From the IMG/VR virus record IMGVR_UViG_3300013125_000879, positions 1 through 26,985 of that record: a stretch of 26,985 nt of DNA, one strand, 5' to 3'. The translations under genes were made by a program, and so were the position numbers. Position 1 is the first letter of the stretch. Each line of letters starts with the position of its first letter. The stretch is from a virus. Positions 8,947 through 26,288 of the stretch are shown piece by piece. The notes beneath the pieces are model-generated. The model saw nothing but the letters and a program-made list of their open reading frames with translations. It was not told the origin of the DNA and searched no databases.

Positions 8947-9354
8947 ATGTTAATTACAAAAAAAGTATGTATAAGAATAAATACTACCGCTATGTGTAAA
9001 AAATCAACAAAACAAAATGAATATGAACTCTTAAGATTTTGTAACAAATTAAATTCTAATATAATTGGTGGTGCTTCTAAATTATTTGAATATTTCATCA
9101 AAATGTATAATCCAGATGAAATAACTACATATGCAGATAGAAGTTTTAGTCAAGGTAATTTATATAAACAATTAGGATTTGAATTTATTAGTAAAACTGA
9201 ACCAAATTATTATTATATTATTGATGGTATTAGAAAGCATAGATTTAATTTTAGAAAAGATAAATTGGTTAGAGAAGGTCATGATAAAAATAAGACTGAG
9301 CATGAAATTATGTTAGAAAAAAAATATATAGAATATACGATTCTGGAAATTTAA
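8947..9354 (+). pseudogene. C-terminal fragment of a phage homing-endonuclease-type protein, frameshifted
   Basis: The 135-aa frame contains the stretch YELLRFCNKLNSNIIGGASKLF, then YADRSFSQGNLYKQLGFEF, NYYYI and KTEHEIMLE. This is characteristic of the C-terminal domain found in many phage and giant-virus homing-endonuclease-like proteins, which normally ends HEIM(L)ER-x-Y-RIYDCGN. Here the end reads KKYIEYTILEI, but the +1 frame of the same DNA (9330-9380) reads YRIYDSGNLKFNYVR. A single missing A in the A8 run at 9322-9329 therefore explains the altered tail. The N-terminal half of the family is absent, and the upstream 108 nt hold no replacement. I read it as a decayed relic. The restored frame would overlap the start of the gene at 9364. 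The frameshift could also be a sequencing error. Confidence 0.65.
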
Positions 9355-12803: not shown

Positions 12804-13209
12804 TTAATTTTTGATATTGTTTTTTGTCTTTAACTTCATCCGCATACTCTTTATTGAATAATAAGATTTATTCAATTGCTTAGCACAATATTTAATACTT
12901 TTATCGTAATTATTAATTAAAAAATTAATTTCTTGTTCTCTCCAATATTTCTTAGGTGTATTAAATACCATATGTGAACATATTTCATCATACCAACCAT
13001 TATTTCTAGCCGAAGAAGCTGCACCTCTACTATTAATATTAAAATCCGTTCTATATTTAAATTTAATAGCTTCGGCTTTACAATTTTCATATGTCCAGTA
13101 GATAGTATTTCCTCCTAGCATCTTTTTTTCTGAAATCATTTCTATTTTTATATTTCAATGCAATTTCATGACATCTATCCTTTGTCCAATAATTATTTGG
13201 CTTCTTCAT
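12804..13209 (-). pseudogene. Frameshifted homing-endonuclease-type DNA-binding protein relic
   Basis: Two overlapping minus-strand frames together make one protein. Frame 1 starts at 13209 (MKKPNNYWTKDRCHEIALKY...NDFRKK) and stops at 13087. Frame 2 starts at 13139 and runs to 12804. Both carry the same [YW]T-x-[DE]-x-C-x-x-x-A-x-K[YF]K-x-R-x-[DN]F repeat, and frame 2 continues with GWYDEICSHM, a module common in phage homing endonucleases and Vsr-like proteins, then a C-terminal helix-turn-helix (YWREQEINFLINNY, YCAKQLNKSYYSIKSM). Removing one A from the A7 run at 13122-13128 would fuse them into a single protein of about 134 aa. No nuclease domain is present, so it is a DNA-binding remnant or an accessory factor. 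The RHH gene lies 1 nt upstream. Confidence 0.6.
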
Positions 13210-13210
13210 T

Positions 13211-13381
13211 TTATAATTTTATTTTTGATACATCTTCATCTACACTCTTAAAAAAATCTTTTAATATTGAATTGATTAAATATGATCTATTTGAAGTTAA
13301 TTCATCTATTATAATAAGCAACTCATTATCAATGGTTATTGATAATTTCTCTCTTTTAGCCTTGTCATATATTTTTTTCAT
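13211..13381 (-). CDS. Ribbon-helix-helix DNA-binding protein, 56 aa
   Basis: A short minus-strand gene (ATG at 13381-13379). The pattern is that of Arc/CopG/MetJ-type repressors: basic N-terminus (KAKREK), a beta-strand LSITIDN, helix A (ELLIIIDELTS), a turn NRS and helix B (YLINSILKDFF). RHH proteins bind DNA as dimers through the paired strands and often regulate their own gene. It stops 1 nt before the homing-relic gene start at 13209 and is divergent from another RHH gene at 13495. The same layout recurs at 19400-19864. Confidence 0.7.
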   Translation of the reverse strand: MKKIYDKAKREKLSITIDNELLIIIDELTSNRSYLINSILKDFFKSVDEDVSKIKL

Positions 13382-13433
13382 TATAGTATATATAAATATT
13401 TAAAATAAAAAATGGTATTTTTTACCATTTTTT
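13381..13433. promoter_or_regulatory. Shared 18-bp block plus 11-bp inverted repeat (copy A)
   Basis: TTATAGTATATATAAATA at 13381-13398 is identical to 19574-19591. It includes TATAAATA, the T4-type late promoter consensus. It is followed by AAAAAATGGTA (13407-13417) and TACCATTTTTT (13423-13433), a perfect inverted repeat with a 5-nt loop. It sits between divergent RHH genes, which suits an autoregulatory operator and promoter; the hairpin could also act as a terminator. Operator role is inference. Confidence 0.55.
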
Positions 13434-13494
13434 TACAAAAACTTTAATATTAAAACTCAATATAATCTATTGAAATAAAATAAATATTAATATA

Positions 13495-13653
13495 GTGAAA
13501 TTCAATAAGAAAAAAAGTATTAGTATATCAATACATCCGGAGATATTAAATTTAATGACAATTTACTGCAAAAAACATAAGATTAATAAATCAAAGTTCA
13601 TAGAAAATAAAATTATTAAGTATCTCGAAACAAAAAATAATAAAATAGAATGA
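13495..13653 (+). CDS. Ribbon-helix-helix DNA-binding protein, 52 aa, GTG start
   Basis: Starts with GTG (VKFNKKKSISISIHPEI...) because the next ATG lies inside the fold. The strand KSISISI, helix A (PEILNLMTIYCKKHK), the turn INKS and helix B (KFIENKIIKYLE) give a complete RHH pattern. It is closely related to the protein at 19697 (shared KKK[ST]xSxSI and KINKSK[FY]IE-like block). Its TGA overlaps the ATG of the SbcD-SbcC gene (13650), so the two are translationally coupled and the regulator may control that gene. Confidence 0.7.
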   Translation: MKFNKKKSISISIHPEILNLMTIYCKKHKINKSKFIENKIIKYLETKNNKIE

Positions 13654-16600
13654 TAATTGCACACTTGGGTGATATCCATATATTGAATGAAAATAGACAC
13701 GATGAATATCAGAAAGTATTTAATAGATTATACAAAAAATTACAAGAATTAAAACCTGATAGGATAGTAATTGTAGGTGATTTATTTGAAAGTAAATTAA
13801 CTTTATCTAACGAAGCTAAATTATTAGCTGGAAATTTTTTAAATAATTTATCTAAAATATCAAAAATTATAATTACTTGTGGTAATCATGATTTGAACTA
13901 TAAATCATTAAACCGAATTGATAGTATTGAAACCATTGTTAAATTGATAAATAATACTAATATTACTTATTATAATAAAAGTGGTATTTATAAAGACGAT
14001 CAAATTTCTTGGGTAGTATATCATCATCCAGAAAAAAATATAGATCCTTGGATCGGGCAGATAAAAGATAAAAATCAAATTTATGTTGGACTTTTTCATG
14101 ATCCGATACAAAATTCTTCAACCGATATAGGTAAAGTATTTACCGATAAGTCACTAAAAGATATATCATATTTTAATCATAATGATTATATGATGCTTGC
14201 CGATATTCATAAAAGACAATACTTTAGAAAAAATAAATCAGCTGCATATTGTGGATCATTAATACAAAAAGATTATGGTGAATCAATTGATAAACACGGA
14301 TTTCTTTTGTGGAATTTAATAAGTGCGACAGAATTTGAAATAACAGAATATGATATTGAAAATGATCATAGATTTCTTAATTTATATATCGATGAAGAAA
14401 CTGACTATGAAAATCTTAAAATTAAAGTAGAAAATTTAACCGAAGATACTGAAATTAAGGTTCATTGGAAAGATTTAAGTTCAAATATTAATACTATTAA
14501 TGAAAAACAAATCAGAGATTATATCAAAGAAAATTTGAATACGACAAAAGTTAAATTTGAAAAAATTTTTGTTTATAATGACGTTATAGATTCTGAAATG
14601 TTATCTGAATCTTTAGATTTAAGTGATACTGACATACAAAATAGTATATTTAAGGAATACCTTGAAAATCAAAAATATAAAAAAGAAGATATTGATGAAA
14701 TTTTAAAAATTGATCAAATTATCAACAATAGATTGAACCTTAAAAATACTAAAGCTAATATACAATGGAGTGTAGATAAGTTCTGGTTTAGTAATTTTAA
14801 ATCATATGGTGACGATAATAAAATTGATTGGAATGATATTGATGGCATGATTCAAATAATCGGATTAAATCAGGAAGGTAAAACTACAATTTTGGATGCT
14901 TTGACTTATATTTTATTTGGTAAAACAACAGTTACCTTATCACCTGAAAAATTCGGTGATAGTAGATACATAAATAATAAAAGAGATTTGGACTATTGCT
15001 TAGGTGGTGCCATTATAGATGTGGATGGTGAAAAATTTATTATACAACGAAAAACAGAAAGAATTTGGAATAAGAACAAGACGATTATTTCTAGTTGCCC
15101 AACCACACTAGATTTCTATAAAAATGAAGTATCAGAAAAAAATAAATTAACAGATGAAGTCAGAGTAAAAACGCAAGAAAAATTAGAACTAATTATAAGT
15201 GACATAGCATCATTTATAAGATTATCATACACTAACGCTGATAATCTGAACTCAATATTATCAGAAACCAGAAGTGTTTTTATGGATAATATAATCAGAG
15301 ATGCAGGATATGATGTTTTTGAAATTAAGTTAGAGGAATTTAAAGAATATAAGAAAGAATTGAGTGAGGAAAAAATAATACTAGATATACAAGAATCAGA
15401 AGCTAGAATAGATGAGTTAAGCACAAATATTGAAAATAAAAAAATAGAAATAGATACCAATAAGACCTTAATAGAAAATTTTGATAATGAATTATCTAAC
15501 CTCAACAACAAAAGAGATGATTTTAATAAAAAATTAAATAATATAGACTCATCAATGATTAATTTTGATGAAAATATTAATCTTAATTCTATTGAAAATT
15601 ACGATAAAAAAATAGAGGAACTTAAAATTCAAAATGTCATTTTGGAAAGAGAAATTAAAGAATTACCTTTAAACTTTGATACAAAGAAACTTAATGATCT
15701 AAAAATAAAACTTAAAGAAACTAATGATAAAATATCTGAAAGAAAAGATGAAATTTCAAATTTAAAAAATCTTATAACAGAATCAGATAATAAAAAAGAT
15801 AAGGTACTATCTAAAATTAAAGAATTAAAAGAGTCTGAGATTAAGAAATTACAATTTAAAATTAATAATAATGAACTTAAGATAGAAATGATTAAGAATC
15901 AAATAGATAAAATCATAAATGAAGAAATTAGAAATATTGATTCACAAATTCAAAATATAATTCTACAAAGGAATGAAATAAATAATAAAATTAAGCTACT
16001 ACAAAAGGATGGAATTAATGCTAAAAATGCAAATGATAAGCTAGATAAAGAAATAGATGAGTTGAAAAATTCAACATCTTGTCCAACTTGTGGTAGAGAA
16101 TATGATAGCAACGATCCAAAGTACTCTGAGCATTTGAATCATCTACAAGAAAATATCAAAGAATTAGGAGAAGAGAAAAAGGAAAATACAGATAAAATAC
16201 AGAAATACTTATCAGAATATAAAAAACTGAAAAATACTCTACCTAGCTTAGATGATAAGGAAAAAGTATTAGAAGAGAGCAAGAAGACAATTAATAATAG
16301 TATTTATTCTGAGAAAGTTAAAGAAAAAATTGTTGAAGCAGGTGATGTTAACATTCTAAAACAAGATAATTTAACTACTAAATCAATAATTGAACAGATT
16401 AAAAATGATAATTATGATAATGCGCCATCACTTAAAGAAAATGTTTTAAGAGGTGAAATCATACTTAAAAAGATAGAAATTTCTAGAAATGAAAATTTAA
16501 AAGTTATTAAAAATCTAGAAATAGAATTAAAAAATTTCAATATTGAAAGTATTGAAAATGATATAGAAATTGAAGAAAAATTGAAAGAAAAATTTGAACT

Positions 16601-17378
16601 TAGAAATACAAAGATTTCTCAAAAAGATAATATAAAACTTTCAATTGAAAATTTTGAACTGAAAATAAAAGATTTACAATTAGAGATAGATAAATTTCAA
16701 GAGTATAAATCTAAAATTGAAGAAAATGAAAAAATTCAAATATCTATCAACGATTTAGAACAAAAGATTAATATTATCAAAGATAATATTAAAGAGATTA
16801 ATCAAGAAAATATAGATTATGAGAAAGATATATTATTAAAAAATAGTGAAATAGATACAATATCTATTAACATTAAAAAATATTTGAAACAAAGAAAAAA
16901 AGAAGAACTTCTTAAAGAATATCAAAAATGCATATCAAGAGATGGTATACCTACCTTTTTATTGAAAAAATCTATACATCTAATAAATAAGGAATTGAAT
17001 GATTTATTATCTAATGTTAATTTTACTTTATTTTTTGATGAGAATTTAACTTTAAGAATGAGTGCTAATGATAGATTGGATGTAAGTCAAAACTCTATAG
17101 AAAGTTCAGGAATGGAAAGAACATTCTGCTCACTTGCCTTAAAAATAGCATTAAGAGAAATTAACGTTAAATCTAAACCAACTTTCATTTTTCTTGATGA
17201 AATTATGGGTAAATTAATTGGTGATTCAGTACAACAATTTATAGATTTTTTAGATGTAATTAAAACAAAAGTAAAAAAAGTTGTTATTATAGAGCATGTT
17301 CATCCGATAAACTATCAAGCTCTCATTGAAGTTAAAAAAGATGAAAAATTGATCTCACACCTAGAATTAAAATATTAG
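13650..17378 (+). CDS. Fused SbcD-SbcC (gp47-gp46, Mre11-Rad50) recombination nuclease
   Basis: A 1242-aa single polypeptide joining the two subunits that are separate in T4 (gp47, gp46) and bacteria. Residues 1-230 are a Mre11/SbcD metallophosphoesterase: D8 and H10 (LGDIH), D44 (VGDLFE), N79/H80 (CGNHD), H150 (GLFHD) and H187 (ADIHKRQ). Residues about 370-1242 are a Rad50/SbcC SMC-like ATPase: Walker A IIGLNQEGKTT (403-413), long coiled coils, a zinc hook with C811-P-T-C814, signature SSGMERT (1152-1158), and Walker B FIFLDE (D1183, E1184). The complex resects DNA ends for recombination-dependent replication and repair. All catalytic motifs are present. Preceded by a coupled RHH gene. Sure of function, less sure how unusual the fusion is. 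Confidence 0.93.
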   Translation: MIIAHLGDIHILNENRHDEYQKVFNRLYKKLQELKPDRIVIVGDLFESKLTLSNEAKLLAGNFLNNLSKISKIIITCGNHDLNYKSLNRIDSIETIVKLINNTNITYYNKSGIYKDDQISWVVYHHPEKNIDPWIGQIKDKNQIYVGLFHDPIQNSSTDIGKVFTDKSLKDISYFNHNDYMMLADIHKRQYFRKNKSAAYCGSLIQKDYGESIDKHGFLLWNLISATEFEITEYDIENDHRFLNLYIDEETDYENLKIKVENLTEDTEIKVHWKDLSSNINTINEKQIRDYIKENLNTTKVKFEKIFVYNDVIDSEMLSESLDLSDTDIQNSIFKEYLENQKYKKEDIDEILKIDQIINNRLNLKNTKANIQWSVDKFWFSNFKSYGDDNKIDWNDIDGMIQIIGLNQEGKTTILDALTYILFGKTTVTLSPEKFGDSRYINNKRDLDYCLGGAIIDVDGEKFIIQRKTERIWNKNKTIISSCPTTLDFYKNEVSEKNKLTDEVRVKTQEKLELIISDIASFIRLSYTNADNLNSILSETRSVFMDNIIRDAGYDVFEIKLEEFKEYKKELSEEKIILDIQESEARIDELSTNIENKKIEIDTNKTLIENFDNELSNLNNKRDDFNKKLNNIDSSMINFDENINLNSIENYDKKIEELKIQNVILEREIKELPLNFDTKKLNDLKIKLKETNDKISERKDEISNLKNLITESDNKKDKVLSKIKELKESEIKKLQFKINNNELKIEMIKNQIDKIINEEIRNIDSQIQNIILQRNEINNKIKLLQKDGINAKNANDKLDKEIDELKNSTSCPTCGREYDSNDPKYSEHLNHLQENIKELGEEKKENTDKIQKYLSEYKKLKNTLPSLDDKEKVLEESKKTINNSIYSEKVKEKIVEAGDVNILKQDNLTTKSIIEQIKNDNYDNAPSLKENVLRGEIILKKIEISRNENLKVIKNLEIELKNFNIESIENDIEIEEKLKEKFELRNTKISQKDNIKLSIENFELKIKDLQLEIDKFQEYKSKIEENEKIQISINDLEQKINIIKDNIKEINQENIDYEKDILLKNSEIDTISINIKKYLKQRKKEELLKEYQKCISRDGIPTFLLKKSIHLINKELNDLLSNVNFTLFFDENLTLRMSANDRLDVSQNSIESSGMERTFCSLALKIALREINVKSKPTFIFLDEIMGKLIGDSVQQFIDFLDVIKTKVKKVVIIEHVHPINYQALIEVKKDEKLISHLELKY

Positions 17379-17433
17379 TACATAAGAGATCCGGGGAGAT
17401 TAAAAATAATATATAAGTAAACACATATATAAA

Positions 17434-17637
17434 ATGGGAATAGTAAGAACATTAAAAGGAGAAGATGGTAGACCCTACGTATCATTAGAAGATCTAATCA
17501 GGGAAGTTGAAGATGCTAAAACTCAAAAAGAATTTGAAGATTTAGATGAGAGACCTAACTTTATAGATATCGTTCTTAAAACACTCAGAAATATGGAAAC
17601 AGAATATTATGACAAGTACTTATTTAAAAAAAAATAA
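17434..17637 (+). CDS. Hypothetical small acidic protein, 67 aa
   Basis: Follows the SbcD-SbcC gene by 55 nt; an A/T-rich TATATAAA stretch precedes the ATG. The product has an acidic helical core (SLEDLIREVEDAKTQKEFEDL) and ends with Lys-rich residues. It has no known domain. The next gene starts 4 nt after its stop, suggesting an operon. Confidence 0.5.
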   Translation: MGIVRTLKGEDGRPYVSLEDLIREVEDAKTQKEFEDLDERPNFIDIVLKTLRNMETEYYDKYLFKKK

Positions 17638-17641
17638 AAAA

Positions 17642-17953
17642 ATGTCAACATTACAACAAACCCAAGCAGATAATATATTCAGTGTCACTGATAAGAATTC
17701 TCAAGAATTATTAAGAATTTATAATAATGGCGATATATATTATAGAAAAGATAATCAAATGGTAAAAGTAAATATACCAGAGGAAATTTCAGAAGCATTT
17801 TTAATGACAATATTAGGATATACTGGTAATAATCCTGAAGAAATAATAGTTGAAAAAATTTCTCAGCACAAATGTTCAGATGAATATTTTAACAAAATGG
17901 AGAAAGCATTCAGAAAGTATAAACTTCAAAAACTTCAAAAACTTAATAAATAA
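17642..17953 (+). CDS. Hypothetical protein, 103 aa
   Basis: The ATG at 17642 (MSTLQQTQADNIFSV...) is preferred over an in-frame ATG at 17609, because that one would overlap the upstream gene and add a low-complexity Lys stretch. The region LLRIYNNGDIYYRKDNQMVKV suggests a small beta-structured domain seen in several phage hypotheticals ('NGDI' motif), followed by helices. The C-terminus repeats KLQKLQKLNK, coded by a tandem 9-nt repeat (17921-17945). Function unknown. Confidence 0.5.
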   Translation: MSTLQQTQADNIFSVTDKNSQELLRIYNNGDIYYRKDNQMVKVNIPEEISEAFLMTILGYTGNNPEEIIVEKISQHKCSDEYFNKMEKAFRKYKLQKLQKLNK

Positions 17954-17987
17954 TTTTTCATTATTTTTTATTTTAATTTTAATTCCT

Positions 17988-17995
17988 TATCTTTG
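17988..17995 (+). promoter_or_regulatory. Possible Bacteroidetes-type -7 element upstream of pncA
   Basis: TATCTTTG matches the Bacteroidetes -7 consensus TAnnTTTG and lies 23 nt before the pncA ATG. No clear TTTG -33 element is seen at the right spacing, so the promoter call is weak. TATAAATA at 18009-18016 abuts the start codon and is more likely chance. Confidence 0.4.
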
Positions 17996-18018
17996 TTACA
18001 ACAAATAATATAAATATT

Positions 18019-18702
18019 ATGAATATTGAATTAGACGAAACTCAAAAAATTTCAGTGGTTTTTGATAAAACCGCTAGCCACAATGTTGATCCTCAGAAAG
18101 GATTTACTCCGCTTTGTCCTGACGAATTGCCAGTAAATGAAGGTGATAAAATTGTAGACGAATTGAATGGTCAAAACAATTTGGTTAAGTATAAAACTGT
18201 TTCTAAAGATGTTCATCCTGCTAATGCAATTTGGTTGGCAAATTCGAAAAAGCCTCAATTTACACCAGTTAAAGGTGAAAATGTTGATATTGCTTGGAAT
18301 GCACATTGTATGTCCGGTACTTACGGTATGGAACTTATTGATGGTCTTCCTGAAATGAAAGAGTATGATTTCTTTCTTGCAAAAGGCTTTGAACCTGACC
18401 TTCATCCATATTCAAGCTGTTATCATGATCTTAACAAAAAAATTTCTACCGGACTTATTGAATGGTACGAATCAAAAAATATTACTACTGTGATTGTTGC
18501 TGGATTAGCCACAAATTTCTGCGTATCAGAGACATGTAAGGATTTATCTGAAGCAGGATTTCAGGTTATTCTTAATCTTGGTGGATGCAGAGGCATCGGA
18601 ACTGAAGAAGAAATTAATAAAATCGTTAATGAATTAGTTGATACATTTAATGTAATTATCGTAAATTCTTATAACGAAATTGAAGTTACTCTCCAACCTT
18701 GA
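18019..18702 (+). CDS. pncA: Nicotinamidase (PncA)
   Basis: A 227-aa isochorismatase-fold amidohydrolase that deamidates nicotinamide to nicotinate. The catalytic triad is visible: D24 (VDPQKGFTP), K122 (LAKGFEPD) and C168 (LATNFCVSE). The metal site fits D64 and H66 (KDVHPA) with H96 (WNAHCMSGTYG). Length and order suit the PncA family, and the HCM-GT and GLAT-CV blocks support nicotinamidase. Its product is the substrate of PncB, whose gene lies 2.1 kb downstream on the same strand. Codons include more G/C (CCG, GCC, GGC) than in neighbours, perhaps recent acquisition. Its 3' end overlaps the convergent GIY-YIG gene by 34 nt. Confidence 0.9.
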   Translation: MNIELDETQKISVVFDKTASHNVDPQKGFTPLCPDELPVNEGDKIVDELNGQNNLVKYKTVSKDVHPANAIWLANSKKPQFTPVKGENVDIAWNAHCMSGTYGMELIDGLPEMKEYDFFLAKGFEPDLHPYSSCYHDLNKKISTGLIEWYESKNITTVIVAGLATNFCVSETCKDLSEAGFQVILNLGGCRGIGTEEEINKIVNELVDTFNVIIVNSYNEIEVTLQP

Positions 18703-19403
18703 TACCTTTTGTTTAATCTCTTCGAATGATATAATACCCATTTTTTAGAATTATATTCAGGATGCTTCTCTAAAAAATCTGGTATTCCAGAAGCAGTAAT
18801 GTATTTTTTATCATCAGGTGTTAAAATTTCAAATACTCCAACATTTGGATTTTTAGCACCTTTTTTTGTTTCACTATACAACTTTTTTGTTTTTTTACTT
18901 CTTTTTAATCCGAAAGATGGTGACAACTCACCTTTTTTACCATAATTCCAATTACCTTCACCACTATGTCTCTCACTTGCAATTTTCTTTTGTTTTTCTG
19001 ATGCCTGATAGATACCAGTTTTACCTTTATTCCAAGGTGTTTTTCCTTCTCTTGATTTTCTAATTTTTTCTTTTGTTTCATCTGAATGTTTTTTACCATA
19101 AAAACCATTATTTTTACCATATAAAACAGGATAATCACCTCCACCTTTACAAATATTATATCCTTCCTCTATTGTATTATAATATTTAATCCAATATTTT
19201 TCTCTTTCGTTCAATTCTTCTTTATCTTCACAATATTCTATAATACCTCTTACAAAATTATCTAATCCATATTTTTTTATATCTTCTAATAGTTTAGGAC
19301 CACTACCACGATAATTATCATATTCTATGTCAGTTGAATGTTGTCCTATATATGCTTTACCATTAGTAAGATTTACAGTTTTATAAATATATTTATATTT
19401 CAT
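18669..19403 (-). CDS. GIY-YIG homing endonuclease with NUMOD3 motifs
   Basis: A 244-aa protein. Residues 1-85 form a GIY-YIG nuclease variant: YIYKT (5-9) with AYIGQHS (17-23), RGSG (32-35) and the helix LNEREKYWIKYY with a candidate catalytic Glu near 68. NUMOD3-type DNA-binding repeats follow (FYGKKHSDETKEKIRKSREGK at 101-121, then TPWNKGKTG), with repeated K/G-rich modules to about residue 200. The C-terminus (KSKKWVLYHSKRL-like, ending QGWRVTSISL) resembles the DNA-binding tails of T4 Seg/I-TevI-like enzymes. The ATG overlaps the TGA of the RHH gene upstream (ATGA). It is antisense to pncA and overlaps its end, so pncA or its flank may be the homing target. No sign of decay. Confidence 0.88.
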   Translation of the reverse strand: MKYKYIYKTVNLTNGKAYIGQHSTDIEYDNYRGSGPKLLEDIKKYGLDNFVRGIIEYCEDKEELNEREKYWIKYYNTIEEGYNICKGGGDYPVLYGKNNGFYGKKHSDETKEKIRKSREGKTPWNKGKTGIYQASEKQKKIASERHSGEGNWNYGKKGELSPSFGLKRSKKTKKLYSETKKGAKNPNVGVFEILTPDDKKYITASGIPDFLEKHPEYNSKKWVLYHSKRLNKRYQGWRVTSISL

Positions 19404-19558
19404 AGTATTATATCTTTTTTCAGGACATTATTATCTTTCAAGTCTTTATATATTAAATATTCAATATACTTAGATTTATTTTCAAATTTTTCTAAAAAAG
19501 TATATACATTACTATTTAATGATATTGATACTTTTCTTTTTGTTTTTGGTTTTTTCAT
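19400..19558 (-). CDS. Ribbon-helix-helix DNA-binding protein, 52 aa
   Basis: The product has a basic N-terminus (MKKPKTKRK), a strand VSISLN, helix A (NVYTFLEKFEN), then K-S-K and helix B (YIEYLIYKDLK): an RHH repressor pattern. Its stop overlaps the ATG of the GIY-YIG gene (ATGA), so they are coupled and it may regulate that gene. It is divergent to the RHH gene at 19697 and carries the same upstream element as the gene at 13211. Confidence 0.72.
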   Translation of the reverse strand: MKKPKTKRKVSISLNSNVYTFLEKFENKSKYIEYLIYKDLKDNNVLKKDIIL

Positions 19559-19573
19559 ATTTATTTAGTATTT

Positions 19574-19616
19574 TTATAGTATATATAAATAAAAAAATGT
19601 CATATTTTTCCATTTT
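19574..19616. promoter_or_regulatory. Shared 18-bp block with degenerate inverted repeat (copy B)
   Basis: TTATAGTATATATAAATA (19574-19591) is identical to copy A at 13381-13398. It is followed by AAAATG (19594-19599) and CATTTT (19611-19616), the same arms as in copy A with a weaker centre. It lies between the divergent RHH genes at 19558 and 19697, consistent with a shared operator or promoter. Confidence 0.5.
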
Positions 19617-19696
19617 GATTTGGCAGTTAGAAAATTTGGTCTTTTTTATCTTTTTTATTTTAAACCATTTTCAATTTTTTATCTATAAAAAAATAA

Positions 19697-19864
19697 ATGG
19701 CAAGACCAAAAACAACTGATAAGAAGAAAACTTTATCAGTTTCAATTAATATTGAATTAGATGAAATCTTGGATAAGATTTGTGAGGAAAAGAATATTAA
19801 CAAATCTAAATACATAGAACATCTTATTAAGAAAGCAATGGAGAAAGAAAAAAGCAGAGATTGA
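19697..19864 (+). CDS. Ribbon-helix-helix DNA-binding protein, 55 aa
   Basis: MARPKTTDKKK leads into strand TLSVSIN, helix A (ELDEILDKICEEKN), turn INKS and helix B (KYIEHLIKKAMEKE). It is the paralogue of the protein at 13495 (shared KKK-x-[IL]S[IV]SI and INKSK[FY]IE). It ends inside a terminator hairpin. Likely a dimeric repressor acting at the shared element between it and the divergent RHH gene. Confidence 0.75.
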   Translation: MARPKTTDKKKTLSVSINIELDEILDKICEEKNINKSKYIEHLIKKAMEKEKSRD

Positions 19865-20847: not shown

Positions 20848-22188
20848 ATGAAACCAATAATTAGAAGTATTCTAGATAATGATCTTTATAAGCTAAGTAT
20901 GCAATTTTTTGTTCTGGATCATTATAATGATGTAGATGTAATTTATGCGTTTAGTAATCGTGATAAATCAATGAAATTTACTGCTGAAGCAGTAAAGGAA
21001 ATCAAACATCAAGTTAAATTGATGTCAAAATTAAAACTTACTGATGAAGAATATGATTGGATGAAAGAAAATCTTTATTTTCTTCCTGTAGCATATCGTC
21101 AATATTTAGCAGCTTATAGGTTCAATTCTAAACAAGTGAAAATTGTTCTCAACTCTGAAAATGAGTTACAAATTTCAATCGAAGGTAAATGGAGAGAAAC
21201 TATACTTTGGGAGGTACCACTAATGGCTATCATTTCAGAAGTTTATTTTAGAATGATTGATACTGATTGGAGTATGAAAGGTCAGGAAATTCTTGCAAAT
21301 TCAAAAGCAAAAACTTTAAGTGAAGCTGAATGTATTTTTACAGATTTTGGTACTCGTCGTAGACGCAATTTTGAAACCCAGGAAATTGTAGTTTCAGAAA
21401 TGAAAAAATACAACGGATTTGCTGGTACTAGCAATTGCTATTTAGCTATGAAATATGATGTTAAAGCGCTCGGAACTTGCGCACACGAAGCAATTGGTGC
21501 GGTTGCTGCTCTAGAAAGTCTGAATCATCCAAATAAGATATTTATGGAAAGGTGGACTAAAACCTATAAAGGCACATTAGGAACTATGCTTCCTGATACT
21601 TTTGGTATTGATACATTCCTTCGAGATTTTTCTTTAGAAAAAGCCAAATTATGGGATGGTGTAAGGCATGATTCAGGTGATCCATATGTGTTTACTGATA
21701 AGATCGTTGATCATTATAAAAAGATGAAAATTGATCCTATGAGTAAACTTATTGTATTTAGCAATGCACTAGATATAGAAACTACAATTAAATTGAAAGA
21801 ATATTGTAAAGATAAAATTCGTTGTTCTTTTGGTATTGGTACTAATTTCACTTCTGATTTTATGAAAAAGACTAATCCCAATGCAAAAAGTAATCCGATG
21901 AATATGGTCATTAAAATGACAATGGCTGATGGTATTCCAGTTGTCAAATTGTCAGATACTCCAAGTAAGGCAATTGGTGATCCAAAAATGGTCGAAATTA
22001 TGAAATATATTCATTTCTTCAATTATCTAAACGATACTATTTCTATTTTTGAAAAATCATTAGAAAAATATAAAGTGGAACTAAGTAAAAGACCTGATAG
22101 TCTATTTTATTCTGGTTTAGTTAAAGAAACAGAAGAATATATTAAAGAGTTGGAACACGAAGAAAAGAAAAATAAACTTTATAAATAG
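20848..22188 (+). CDS. pncB: Nicotinate phosphoribosyltransferase (PncB)
   Basis: A 446-aa protein aligning by eye over its full length with bacterial PncB: LDNDLYKLSMQFFVLDHY (9-26), WRETILWEVPLMAIISEVY (115-133), DFGTRRRRNFETQE (167-179), the phosphorylatable histidine in GTCAHEAIGA (H213), LRDF (258-261), GVRHDSGDP (271-279) and SFGIGTN (327-333). It converts nicotinate and PRPP to nicotinate mononucleotide, the committed Preiss-Handler step, with ATP hydrolysis through the His. It is not the nicotinamide-specific NadV/NAMPT seen in other phages. The C-terminus (about 400-446) is charged. It heads the operon pncB-clpS-TM gene-clpC, with clpS 16 nt downstream. Confidence 0.92.
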   Translation: MKPIIRSILDNDLYKLSMQFFVLDHYNDVDVIYAFSNRDKSMKFTAEAVKEIKHQVKLMSKLKLTDEEYDWMKENLYFLPVAYRQYLAAYRFNSKQVKIVLNSENELQISIEGKWRETILWEVPLMAIISEVYFRMIDTDWSMKGQEILANSKAKTLSEAECIFTDFGTRRRRNFETQEIVVSEMKKYNGFAGTSNCYLAMKYDVKALGTCAHEAIGAVAALESLNHPNKIFMERWTKTYKGTLGTMLPDTFGIDTFLRDFSLEKAKLWDGVRHDSGDPYVFTDKIVDHYKKMKIDPMSKLIVFSNALDIETTIKLKEYCKDKIRCSFGIGTNFTSDFMKKTNPNAKSNPMNMVIKMTMADGIPVVKLSDTPSKAIGDPKMVEIMKYIHFFNYLNDTISIFEKSLEKYKVELSKRPDSLFYSGLVKETEEYIKELEHEEKKNKLYK

Positions 22189-22204: not shown

Positions 22205-22498
22205 ATGAGTGACACAAAAATTGAAACGAAAACTCTAGATGAAATTTTAGCAGAATCTGGAATCTCTTCTAGTTCTGAATCTAAATTAATCTTATGGAAT
22301 GATGATCACAATTCATTTGAATGGGTAATTATATGTCTAATCACATATTTAAAATTTTCATTTGAAAGAGCTGAAAGTACAGCTTGGACTGTTCATCTTC
22401 AAGGTAAAGATATCATCAAAACTGGCTCAAAAGAATCTTTGATGCCAATTAAAAAAATATTAGAAGAAAGAGGATTGACATTATCAATCGAGGAATAA
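22205..22498 (+). CDS. clpS: ClpS-like N-degron adaptor
   Basis: A 97-aa protein with a flexible 25-residue N-terminus and a ClpS core: LILWNDDHNSFEWVI (28-42), with N32-D33-D34 that bind the alpha-amino group of an N-degron, and the TVHLQGK strand (H64). The Met40 gatekeeper of E. coli ClpS is replaced by F38, as in the 'NTFD' type that I recall from Bacteroidetes, suggesting host origin. In the family, ClpS delivers proteins with bulky N-terminal residues to ClpA-type unfoldases. It lies in one operon with an unfoldase (22743), fitting that partnership. Which host or phage proteins it selects is unknown. Confidence 0.88.
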   Translation: MSDTKIETKTLDEILAESGISSSSESKLILWNDDHNSFEWVIICLITYLKFSFERAESTAWTVHLQGKDIIKTGSKESLMPIKKILEERGLTLSIEE

Positions 22499-22742: not shown

Positions 22743-25700
22743 ATGAAGCAATCAAAAAGTGTAGAAGAGTCTATTAAAAGTAGTAAACAAATTGCAATTG
22801 GTATTGGGTCTAATACAATTAGACCCGAACATTTATTTTTAGCACTAGTTAACGAAGATCCAAAGATTTATTCTCTGTTGGAGGATATTCTTAATGTAGA
22901 AAATGTAAAACAAACTTTACATGATTGGTCACTAGCTTATCAGTATCAGATTGGAATAAATAAACTGAGAAGTAATTCTAAAATTTCACTTGATTCTGAA
23001 ACAGATAAAATTCTTAAAAATGCAATTTCATTTGCTGAAAAAATTAATGCTGATGAAGTTGAGGCTGAGCACGTATTCTCAGCAATACTAGAAAATAAAA
23101 CTAATTTGGTAACGGAACTTTTTAGTAAAAATCCTGAAATTATTAAACTTATCAAAGCAAAACTTAGAAATGAGGAGGAAGAAGTTGATTTTAGTAACGA
23201 ATTAGAAGGAGAAGGTAATATGGAAATGGAAGAACCAGTAAACGAACCCGAAGCTAAGGGTAATAAGAATTCTAAAACCAAATTAATTGATCAATTTGGT
23301 ACAGATCTTACAAAACTAGCTAAAGAGAATAGTTTAGATCCCGTTGTTGGTAGAAAAACTGAGATAAAAAGAATTTCACAAATTCTTTCGCGTAGAAAAA
23401 AGAATAATCCAGTTTTGGTAGGTGAACCAGGTGTAGGTAAATCTGCAATTGTTGAAGGTATTGCACAATTAATTGTTGAAGGTAAAGTACCAGAAAATCT
23501 AAAAGATAAGAGAATTATCACACTTGATATGGGTTCTTTGGTTGCTGGTACTAAATATCGTGGTGAATTTGAACAAAGAATGAGAGGAATCATCAAAGAA
23601 ATGGAAGAAAATCATAACATTATTCTATTTATTGATGAAATTCACACAATTATTGGTGCAGGATCTGCTCAGGGTTCTCTTGATGCTGCTAATATGTTGA
23701 AACCAGCATTATCTAGAGGATTTTTTAGGTGTATTGGTGCGACAACACTTGAAGAGTATCGTAAATATATTGAAAAAGACGCAGCTCTTGAACGTAGATT
23801 TCAGAAGGTAGATGTAGATCCCAATTCAAAATCTGAAACATTAGAAATTCTTAAAAATCTAAAAGAGAGATATGAAGATTATCATAATGTTACCTATACC
23901 GATGAAGCACTGAAATATTGTGTAGAATTAACTGATAAATATATGTCAGAAAAACATCTACCAGATAAGGCAATCGACGCTATGGATGAGGCAGGTTCAA
24001 AAGTTCATGTTAATAAGAACATTGAAACACCTAAAAAAATTCAGGATCTTGAAAAGAAAATTAAAAAAATAAAAACCGAGAAAGAATCATATGTAAATGA
24101 GCAAAAATTTGAAATGGCGGCTGAGAAAAGAGATCTTGAAAAGGAATTGACAAAACAGTTAAATTCAGAAAAAGAAATCTGGAAAGCTGAAATTTCTAAA
24201 GTTAGAGATATTGTATCCAAAGATGATGTGACAGAGGTTATCGCATTAATGACAAAAATTCCAGTAGATAATGTATCATCTGATGAAAATACTAAATTAA
24301 AAGTTATGTCTAGTAAAGTTAAAGGTATTGTTATCGGACAGGATGATGCTGTAGATAAACTTGTACGAGCAGTTAAAAGAGCAAGGATCGGTATTAAAGA
24401 TCCAAAAAGACCTGTTGGTTCATTTATTTTCTTGGGTCCTACAGGTGTGGGGAAATGTCACGGTAAAGGAACAAAAATATTAATGTTTGATGGTAGTATT
24501 AAAAATGTTGAAGATGTATTACCAGGAGATTTATTAATGGGTGATGATTCTACACCAAGAACAGTGATTTCTTTAGCAAGAGGTAAAGATAAGATGTATC
24601 GAATAAATCCATTAAACGGTGGAGATTCATTCGTTTGTAATAATCCGCATATTCTCTCACTTAAAAAAACAGGCTCATATGAAACGGTAAATATACCACT
24701 AAATGAATATCTAGAAAAGAGTAAATGGTTCAAGCACATTCATAAATTATGGAGAACTAATGTTGAGTTTCCATCAAAAATGGTTAAAATAGATCCATAT
24801 TTTATGGGATTATGGTTAGGTGATGGTAATAGTCATAATTGTGGGATAACTACAGCAGATTCTGAAGTAGTAGATTATATATACAAAATAGCTAGAGATT
24901 GGAATCTTAATGTTAGAGTTGACGAATTAGAAAACAATAAATCCAATACATACGTTTTAACGGGTAATATTAAAGGAGAGTATCATAATAATAATTTAAT
25001 GACAACTTTCAGAGAATATAATTTAATGAAGAAATATAAAGAGAAAGATATTACTAATAGCAAATTTATTCCTGATGATTACTTATATAATGATTCTTCT
25101 GTTAGAAAAGCAGTTTTAGCTGGACTTATTGATAGTGATGGGTATCATCATCATAATTGTTATTTGATATCAACCAAATATGATAAATTAGCGGATCAAA
25201 TTCTATTTTTATCTAGAAGTCTTGGATATAGAGCGTCAAAAACACCAAAAATAGTAAACGGAGATATATATTACTCTATTAATATATGTGGAGATTTAAG
25301 TGATCTTAATATTATTTTAAGTAAAAAGCAATCTACAGCAAGAAAACAAAAAAAGAACGTAATGTTGACAGGATTTGATGTGGAATATATTGGAGTTGAT
25401 GACTATTATGGATTCGAAATTGATGGAAACCATTTATATTTATTAGGTGATTTTACTGTGACTCATAACACATACCTTGCCAAAGTTCTTGCGAAGGAAC
25501 TTTTTGGATCAGAAGATTCAATGATTAGAATTGATATGAGTGAATATATGGAGAAACATACAGTTTCTAGGTTAGTTGGAGCACCTCCTGGATACGTTGG
25601 TTATGAAGATGGTGGTGAATTAACTGAAGCAGTAAGACGTAAACCTTATTCAATTATCCTTCTTGATGAAATTGAGAAAGCACATCCTGACGTTTATAAC

Positions 25701-26288
25701 ATTCTTCTTCAGCTTCTTGATGATGGTGTACTAACTGATAGTTATGGTCGTAGAGTTGACTTTAAAAACACTATTATTATTATGACATCAAATGCCGGAT
25801 CCAGAAAACTTAAAGATTTTGGAACTGGTATTGGTTTCAAGACTGATGTTTCTCAGTCTGATAAAAATAGTGTTATTGAAAAAGAATTGAAAAAAATCTT
25901 CAATCCTGAGTTTATGAATCGTATTGACGAAGTTATAATGTTTAATTCTTTAACAAAAGATAATATTGGTACCATCGTAGATGTTGAAGTTAAATCTACT
26001 ATTCAGAGGTTGAAAGATATTGGATATGAAATTACAATCACAACCTCTCTAAAAGACTTTTTATTTGAAAAAGGTTACGATCCCGATTATGGTGCAAGAC
26101 CATTAAAAAGAGCAATTCAGAAATATATTGAAGATAAAATCACAGATGCAATTATTAATGAAGAACTTAAAGTTGGTGATAGAATATCAATAAGATACGA
26201 TAAAACTTCTAATGATGTTAAAATTGTGAAATTGACTTCAAAAGATAAAGGAATCGAAACCGAATTAAGCGAGACACCGGCTAAATAA
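22743..26288 (+). CDS. clpC: ClpC-type AAA+ unfoldase interrupted by an intein
   Basis: A 1181-aa precursor; with the intein (residues 572-909) removed, 843 aa remain, the usual ClpC length. Order: Clp_N domain (1-150), D1 AAA+ with Walker A GEPGVGKS (227-234) and Walker [10 protein letters not shown], a UVR-like middle domain ([15 protein letters not shown]), D2 with Walker A GPTGVGK (565-571) completed by T910, a second Walker B ([13 protein letters not shown]) and a C-terminal domain. The GIGF motif in D2 (GTGIGFKTD) is the kind of loop that docks on ClpP, so it may work with host ClpP; no phage ClpP is seen here. It unfolds substrates, presumably those ClpS delivers. Followed by a terminator. 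Confidence 0.93.
24456..25469 (+). mobile_element. Intein with LAGLIDADG homing endonuclease in ClpC D2 Walker A
   Basis: A 338-aa in-frame insertion starting at C572 ([18 protein letters not shown]...) directly after the Walker A lysine and ending H908-N909, with Thr as the +1 extein residue. Splicing blocks: block A (start Cys), block B (NNPHILS, H636), and block F/G ([18 protein letters not shown] followed by FTVTHN). Two LAGLIDADG-like motifs, FMGLWLGDG (687-695) and LAGLIDSDG (792-800), mark the homing endonuclease. Removal would restore GPTGVGK-T and an active ATPase. It is full-length and appears functional. Confidence 0.93.

Follow-up and report, generated by a model that had tools for sequence, protein, structure and literature searches.

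Small ribbon-helix-helix (RHH) repressors of the CopG/omega/SvtR type, about 50 amino acids (aa) long, act on short symmetric sites at their own promoters. The C proteins of restriction-modification systems are likewise small autoregulators, encoded in a nuclease operon whose operator overlaps its promoter; they are single helix-turn-helix proteins tied to methylases. Phage homing endonucleases are under tight control; the means described in the sections drawn on here of an account of T4 mobile elements (PMC2988022) are I-TevI autorepression, promoter choice, and RNA hairpins. We analyzed a virus record of 26,985 bases (IMG/VR IMGVR_UViG_3300013125_000879, positions 1 to 26,985; hereafter, the window), in which each of two loci has a divergent pair of RHH genes around a common control sequence. 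We think it fairly probable, judging from sequence comparisons, that the two loci are an intact-looking copy (locus 2) and a decayed copy (locus 1) of a mobile cassette in which a constant RHH pair would repress the promoter of an exchangeable nuclease gene.

This cassette resembles I-TevI and other T4-type systems in that mobile nucleases of phages are inserted beside conserved genes, with an operator overlapping the nuclease promoter. In I-TevI, however, the nuclease itself represses through an operator that resembles its homing site, and the same sections of the T4 account describe neither a separate repressor nor an operator common to nuclease families (PMC2988022). In contrast to I-TevI, the single putative operator of the cassette serves different nuclease types. 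The cargo families T5orf172 and DUF723 are shared with phage genes reported at genetic exchange boundaries (PMC10448857), in an excerpted text that contains neither the word "promoter" nor "ribbon"; in the relevant portion of another paper, "RHH" stands for DndE (PMC10853773). TnpB is part of the cargo set, as in IS200/IS605-type elements, but its promoter/operator is that of homing-endonuclease-type genes. Compared with CopG/omega/SvtR-type repressors, which it resembles in protein size and site, the cassette has a divergent pair that would guard a mobile nuclease; compared with C-protein operons, it combines a divergent pair of RHH proteins with mobile nucleases that can be exchanged. We found no description of an RHH-controlled homing endonuclease or TnpB in the open literature, searched by titles and abstract openings, with most subscription journals and bioRxiv outside the search. 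Homing-nuclease cassettes as such are known; a dedicated control system for them, extending to TnpB, would be unreported.

At locus 2, RHH gene C (19400 to 19558, minus strand) overlaps by 4 nucleotides (nt) a GIY-YIG homing-endonuclease-type gene with NUMOD3 repeats (18669 to 19403, minus strand). The nuclease matches Pfam NUMOD3 above the cut-off (8.5e-13), GIY-YIG just below it (6e-4), and a PHROG of homing endonucleases (2.9e-36); the 3' end of its gene overlaps the 3' end of pncA (18019 to 18702). RHH gene D (19697 to 19864, plus strand), the divergent partner, encodes an N-terminal arm MARPK. Between the RHH genes lies the putative operator/promoter element TGACATTTTTTTATTTATATATA (19580 to 19602, minus strand), with no mismatch to the consensus given below and a class I left flank, AAAATGGAAAAATA. 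At locus 1, RHH gene A (13211 to 13381, minus strand) lies 1 nt ahead of a repeat gene, and RHH gene B (13495 to 13653, plus strand) is the divergent partner. The original prediction had proposed this layout, a duplicated module of divergent RHH genes with a homing-endonuclease-type gene behind each minus-strand RHH gene, and parts of both its description and its interpretation hold. All four small open reading frames (ORFs) are present in the divergent arrangement, and the nuclease is found at locus 2; at locus 1, the corresponding gene is a broken repeat gene in which no nuclease domain was found.

Further divergent RHH pairs were found in related records, which were reached via NAMPT and gene 46/47 similarity, and the gene type behind the nuclease-side RHH differs between them. 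In record G007, a LAGLIDADG gene (Pfam LAGLIDADG_3, 2e-5) occupies the module before gene 47, a DUF723 gene with T5orf172 the module before clpS, and a DUF7487 gene the module beside ruvC. G002 has, where gene 46 ends, a module with a DUF723-type gene (by eye); the frame-broken RHH of G006 is followed by a short repeat protein. In four of the modules, the nuclease gene runs into the 3' end of a conserved gene that converges on it (pncA, gene 46, ruvC, or nampt). The same site can be occupied or empty: G002 carries a module in the interval from gene 46 to orf17434, and this interval is 55 bases in the window and G001, 42 in G006, 36 in G008, and 1 in G007; between nampt and clpS, G007 has a module and the window 16 bases. 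Two hallmarks of homing endonuclease genes were thus observed, a nuclease domain (at locus 2) and presence or absence at one site among relatives. Such polymorphic sites apparently reflect mobile genes, and we infer that they move by homing. A long non-coding stretch is identical between the window and a G007 module at a different site. In a 735-kb huge phage, a DUF723-type gene accompanies two divergent RHH genes (L158); no clear module was found in four other huge-phage records scanned.

The original prediction had centered on an 18-bp block, and TTATAGTATATATAAATA is indeed exact at both loci (13381 to 13398 and 19574 to 19591), with three further matches in the window, each with 3 mismatches. 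Eight related records contain the whole 18-mer with at most one mismatch five times, always at RHH or TnpB-like places: four RHH modules, two of them in the window, and one TnpB-like ORF. At 2 mismatches there are 13 matches of mixed character, including RHH genes (L020 and L027), nuclease genes (L016 and L026), and ordinary genes (L021, L025, and L029), and the core of the block is widespread. On the minus strand, the block reads TATTTATATATACTATAA, the phage promoter core plus downstream bases, and it lies directly ahead of the nuclease-side RHH gene. In five related contigs, 284 upstream regions contain the core, TTTATATATA, 48 times, with 4.2 occurrences expected and a sharp peak 20 to 29 nt ahead of the start codon. 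By these counts, it is the general phage promoter TTWATATATAC (also written TATTTATATATAC), predicted to direct transcription of the nuclease-side RHH gene on the minus strand. The T4 late promoter sequence, TATAAATA, is present on the plus strand of the block, and a promoter of this kind was ruled out by position: TATATAAATA (9 sites) has no clear position peak and TTTATATATA is peaked, which indicates the other strand for the promoter. The supposition that the 18-bp block as such is the RHH site therefore lacks support, because its core serves many other genes and a neighboring TGACWTT box singles out the RHH and nuclease genes.

The spacer consensus on the nuclease strand, TGAC(A/T)TT-W4-TATTTATATATA, is whole in five of the seven modules compared. 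A scan of 2.9 million IMG/VR contigs with TGACWTT-W4-TATTTATATATA returned 78 stretches in 51 distinct contexts, and a nuclease-type gene lies downstream in 47 of the 49 readable ones, assigned by Pfam or PHROG scan in 23 of the 47 and by similarity or motif by eye in the rest. Two contexts end at a contig edge, L109 after the RHH gene and L103 in a MerR-like ORF. Without the five contexts that supplied the consensus (L064, L074, L076, L107, and L128), the count is 42 of 44. Twelve of the nucleases are TnpB-like (six scanned, five in the same clusters, and L077 by eye); the others are of DUF723, DUF7487, GIY-YIG/WTK-repeat, LAGLIDADG, HNH/endonuclease VII-like, and other endonuclease types. 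Some of these genes are cut or seemingly incomplete (L057, L077, L101, and L112), the sole match of L126 is a PHROG of unknown function, and the cargo families of L064, L073, and L100 were assigned by reading their sequences. The TnpB cargo of L092, which stands behind an RHH pair, matches NCBIfam guided_TnpB (1.7e-41) and TnpB in the PDB (3e-11). A nuclease-side RHH gene lies between element and nuclease in 32 of the 51 contexts (29 by profile, L141, L144, and the G007 module behind L076; the profile passed over another RHH-like ORF, in L068), and a divergent RHH gene lies upstream in 28. Spacings are tight: the RHH ATG is 13 to 24 nt past the element in 29 of 29 cases, and the nuclease ATG lies -4 to +2 nt from the RHH stop in 23 of 27. 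A control scan with TGAC reordered to CAGT gave a single stretch. The true pattern matched eight times in 84,980 bacterial and archaeal genomes; within 60 nt of those matches are two ATG-opened ORFs, neither of them RHH or nuclease by eye. In a separate observation, the element precedes a MerR-like ORF, which we presume to resemble the N terminus of an IS607-type recombinase, at L103:10158-10361 (a copy that runs off the contig), L055, and L063.

The box also discriminates among promoters that share the core. Of 96 core promoters in the five contigs, 18 precede RHH or nuclease genes, and 6 of these 18 have TGAC at the fixed position, as do none of the 78 others (Fisher 2e-5); five of those six are modules used to derive the box, which makes the zero among the others the informative part. 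In the same list minus one site inside the locus 2 operon, TGAC stands at 6 of 9 RHH-adjacent and at 0 of 8 other nuclease promoters (P = 0.009). The near-exact 18-mer marks RHH and TnpB-like places, and the nuclease specificity of the TGAC element is shown by the scan.

A search that started from the proteins gave a similar picture. Two alignments of divergent RHH proteins (A5 and A6) retrieved 44 loci, which we merged into 30 distinct places. At 22 of these there is a divergent nuclease-side RHH gene, followed in every case by a nuclease-type gene (21 places) or an apparent remnant (L205); 9 of the 22 modules were already in the element set. The remaining eight places have no adjoining partner: L190, L192, L208, L209, and L215 seem to represent other RHH families, a WTK-repeat gene lies 0.6 kb from L178, L177 lies about 0.85 kb from the L121 module on the same contig, and nothing was recognized at L181. 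Recurrent divergent RHH modules tied to nuclease genes suggest that RHH proteins probably control the homing endonuclease, as the original prediction held.

The plus-strand proteins B and D are RHH paralogues, as predicted (38% identity over 47 aa; tblastn, 1e-7). Protein B matches Pfam RHH_3 (1.4e-5) and D matches RepB-RCR_reg (8e-6), with RHH_1 below the cut-off (0.0015); tblastn of D against deposited phages gave no match at 0.01. For the minus-strand proteins A and C, also called RHH, Pfam returned no RHH match; they are similar to the plus-strand type (C versus D, 41%, 1e-4; A versus a G007 partner RHH, 41%, 1e-4), and fold prediction is compatible, if weak. The AlphaFold model of C (predicted local distance difference test, 82) has an extended N-terminal part and then two helices, as do the monomer RHH models generally. 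Class alignments comprised 22 of the 29 nuclease-side proteins plus window protein A (A3) and 20 of the 28 divergent ones (A4). The A4 profile matches NikR (3.6e-5), CopG, and 2kel, which we take to be SvtR, and at E 0.01 Pfam finds RHH_1 in 6 and RHH_3 in 5 of the 20 divergent proteins. The nuclease-side proteins are mostly 47 to 60 aa long (one of 78). By sequence similarity, then, both classes appear to belong to the RHH (MetJ/Arc) superfamily.

The type of RHH protein goes with the type of control sequence. The flanks of TGACWT covary as a dyad, with A-type left arms accompanying T-type right arms and vice versa: 149 of 204 arm positions are complementary, against 108.6 (standard deviation, 8.2) in shuffled pairs, a value reached in 0 of 5,000 shuffles. 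For each of the two RHH genes, the more similar the proteins, the more similar the operators (Mantel r, 0.27 and 0.25; P = 0.0002 and 0.0006). An A-type left flank accompanies divergent RHH proteins with an (A/G/V)RPK arm in 8 of 8 cases, compared with 2 of 20 for the others (P = 1.4e-5). In 13 modules outside this first set, the proportions are 7 of 7 for the RP type and 0 of 5 for the rest (P = 0.0013), with L205 left out since its operator is eroded. All of these comparisons, the covariation and arm tests alike, treat the modules as unrelated by descent. RHH type and operator type are thus coinherited. RPK resembles the core of an AT-hook, and by this analogy the RPK arm could read the operator arms.

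The mechanism that we favor is as follows. The phage promoter TTWATATATAC would drive a short operon in which a gene for an RHH protein of about 50 aa is followed by an overlapping or abutting nuclease gene, and the divergent upstream gene would make the second RHH protein. The nuclease promoter would contain a pseudo-dyad operator, (AAAATA or TTTTT)-TGACWT-(TATTTT or TAAAA); if the core's terminal TATATA is the -10 element, TGACWTT would span roughly -29 to -23 and the dyad roughly -35 to -18, a region covered by the polymerase. RHH dimers sitting on this operator would block transcription of the RHH and nuclease genes and so keep the selfish nuclease low and autoregulated, with the RHH-operator part constant and the nuclease swapped. 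A repressor site seems the best explanation because the box is inside the promoter and promoters of ordinary genes lack it. The constant spacings to the start codons suggest that RHH and nuclease genes are probably cotranscribed and translationally coupled, which would amount to autoregulation.

Some TnpB and other nuclease genes have the operator but no RHH gene of their own, and these may be controlled in trans. Where RHH matches occur elsewhere in a record with such a nuclease, that record has at least one divergent RHH pair, and the RHH type agrees with the operator flank in G011 (RPK pairs with class I TnpB operators), G019, and G009. A bolder idea, possible but in our view doubtful, is that RHH-operator types are immunity groups in phage nuclease warfare, in which a resident RHH silences all mobile nucleases with a matching operator, those of coinfecting relatives included. 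If this were true, a whole class of selfish nucleases, homing endonucleases and TnpB alike, would stand under one exchangeable trans-acting repressor code.

Several results weigh against repression of the nuclease promoter by the RHH pair. On the DNA side, 12 of the 18 RHH/nuclease promoters in the five contigs have no TGAC. The first ORF behind the element is not a nuclease in L059 and L120 (an HNH-like ORF lies farther on in L120), and of the 12 new modules in the arm test, 3 have exactly TGACWTT and the others TGACCTT, TGATATT, CGACTTT, etc. The box stands without an adjacent RHH gene in 11 of the 12 TnpB-like contexts; RHH matches occur elsewhere in just 6 of the 13 records whose operator-bearing nuclease lacks its own RHH, and the RHH type disagrees with the TnpB operator flank in G012 and G015, with an equivocal comparison in G010. 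As to the proteins, none of 23 nuclease-side sequences matched an RHH family in Pfam and none matched in PDB sequences. Foldseek gave no match for the nuclease-side model at an E value of ≤0.001, and the best structural rows are weak (ParD, Z of 3.5; NikR, 3.2; CdbA, ≤3.5). Finally, a module inherited whole would give the same RHH-operator association as the covariation tests detect.

Some of these results suit a different account, in which the TGACWTT box belongs to a class of phage promoters, bound by a phage sigma factor or activator, that mobile nucleases merely chance to use, and the RHH proteins are activators or passengers. The distance from box to core is fixed (by construction of the search pattern) and that to the start codon is also kept, TnpB genes have the box without adjacent RHH genes, and the box varies in the modules found by protein. 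We nevertheless consider this account unlikely, since ordinary genes share the core without the box (0 of 78), the arms of the box form a variable dyad that tracks the RHH type, and the box lies inside the promoter, where activators seldom bind. It is improbable, too, that RHH genes and element serve solely as a recombination anchor, providing homology for nuclease swaps without regulation: the RHH-operator part is constant while the nuclease changes, and the identical non-coding stretch of the window and G007 lies at different sites, but the element is only about 40 bp long, its spacing to start codons is fixed, and TnpB genes without RHH genes retain it; both roles could coexist. A toxin-antitoxin-like pair, in which the overlapping RHH would neutralize the nuclease protein, is very improbable, for although the overlap recalls type II operons, the best structural rows are ParD antitoxins, and one of the 23 nuclease-side proteins weakly matches CcdA, these proteins are short with little beyond the RHH fold, precede at least six nuclease types, and are accompanied by a second, divergent RHH, which is not known from such operons.

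Locus 1 looks like a decayed copy of the cassette, because its nuclease-side gene is broken and the TGAC is gone; the RHH pair still stands ahead of gene 47/46. The first piece of the broken gene (13087 to 13209, minus strand) is in another frame from the second, which encodes a protein with WTK repeats (12804 to 13139, minus strand). No nuclease domain was found by Pfam and PHROG scans. A WTK-repeat relative, L108, carries a GIY-YIG domain, and the locus 1 protein is probably a homing-endonuclease remnant. The promoter core with its eroded box (13387 to 13409, minus strand) has 3 mismatches to the element. At the same site, the box of G006 is altered and its RHH frame broken; G008 retains the partner RHH and a repeat gene, and a nuclease-side RHH was not found there. 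L205 shows a similarly decayed picture, with a remnant nuclease and eroded operator. Of the alternatives that had been offered, a mobile or a duplicated module, the first fits a recurrent and apparently mobile cassette. Recent duplication linking the two loci was ruled out, since each has its own relatives elsewhere: counterparts of locus 1 lie ahead of gene 47/46 in G006 and G007, and modules resembling locus 2 stand elsewhere in G002 and G007.

The AAAATG...CATTTT arms noted earlier are present, at 19594 to 19616 in locus 2, within a stretch common to a G007 module at another site. As stand-alone signals, inverted repeats do not exceed chance in such AT-rich DNA: the best arm is 11 bp at locus 1, reached by 19 of 300 shuffles, and 8 bp at locus 2, reached by 185 of 300. 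The locus 1 repeat, AAAAAATGGTA-ttttt-TACCATTTTTT (13407 to 13433), is a possible operator of that locus and is partly kept in G006.

Two motifs, TTWATATATAC and TAnnTTTG, are prominent in upstream regions of G001, G002, G003, G006, and G007, and both peak 20 to 29 nt before start codons. TAnnTTTG, presumably a Bacteroidota promoter motif, occurs 62 times in the 284 upstream regions, most commonly 20 to 29 nt ahead of the start. It was found in only 1 of 30 regions upstream of divergent RHH genes, leaving an early host-driven repressor unsupported as a general rule. A third motif, AAACTTT and then TATAA, apparently precedes the divergent RHH genes (by eye).

Record G001 (IMGVR_UViG_3300013137_002967, an IMG/VR contig of 86,112 bases) is 100% identical to the window in every protein compared. 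Its 604-aa protein has 46% identity over 94% of its length to a protein of LR756501.1, the 735-kb uncultured huge phage. In that phage, one- and two-mismatch elements precede an L073-like gene (L155) and a DUF7487-like gene (L154), and the two-mismatch pattern also precedes a portal-like gene and three other non-nuclease genes, by eye (L151, L153, L156, and L157). Megablast found no near-identical phage among those deposited, and of ten ORFs from G001 and the window, few could be named by a PHROG scan. On different contigs, including the 735-kb phage, a 92-aa ORF is followed by a conserved 134-aa protein whose N-terminal part is RHH-like (L059 and L161); in L059, the element precedes this pair of ORFs.

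The genes around the two loci have features of their own. Genes 47 and 46 (SbcD/SbcC-like) are fused in a 1,242-aa protein with Metallophos and AAA_23 domains (13650 to 17378, plus strand); this gene adjoins the locus 1 module, its start overlapped by the stop of RHH gene B, and served for site comparison. A PncA-like gene (18019 to 18702, by eye) and a NAMPT-like gene (20848 to 22188), whose product matches annotated nicotinate phosphoribosyltransferases, form an NAD salvage pair; together with a PurA-like ORF in G001 (L032:16492-17667) and DeoC in the window, both by eye, the pair suggests a broad nucleotide program. Shortly downstream of clpS (22205 to 22498), a phage ClpA gene of 1,181 aa (22743 to 26288) looks interrupted at the second Walker A motif by an intein, with GVGK-C...HN-T and a LAGLIDADG-like stretch (by eye). 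A 135-aa ORF (8947 to 9354) has 62% identity over 102 aa to the C-terminal part of the DUF7487-type nuclease L089, and a homologue lies ahead of orf9364 in G007.

A repressor pair and an operator common to homing endonucleases and TnpB would make the mobile nucleases of huge phages a regulon. The cassette supplies a simple non-coding signature for finding mobile nucleases, together with a putative two-class recognition system that is testable. In a group of very large phages, many kinds of mobile nuclease often stand behind the same RHH pair and control sequence, by which they are probably kept low.

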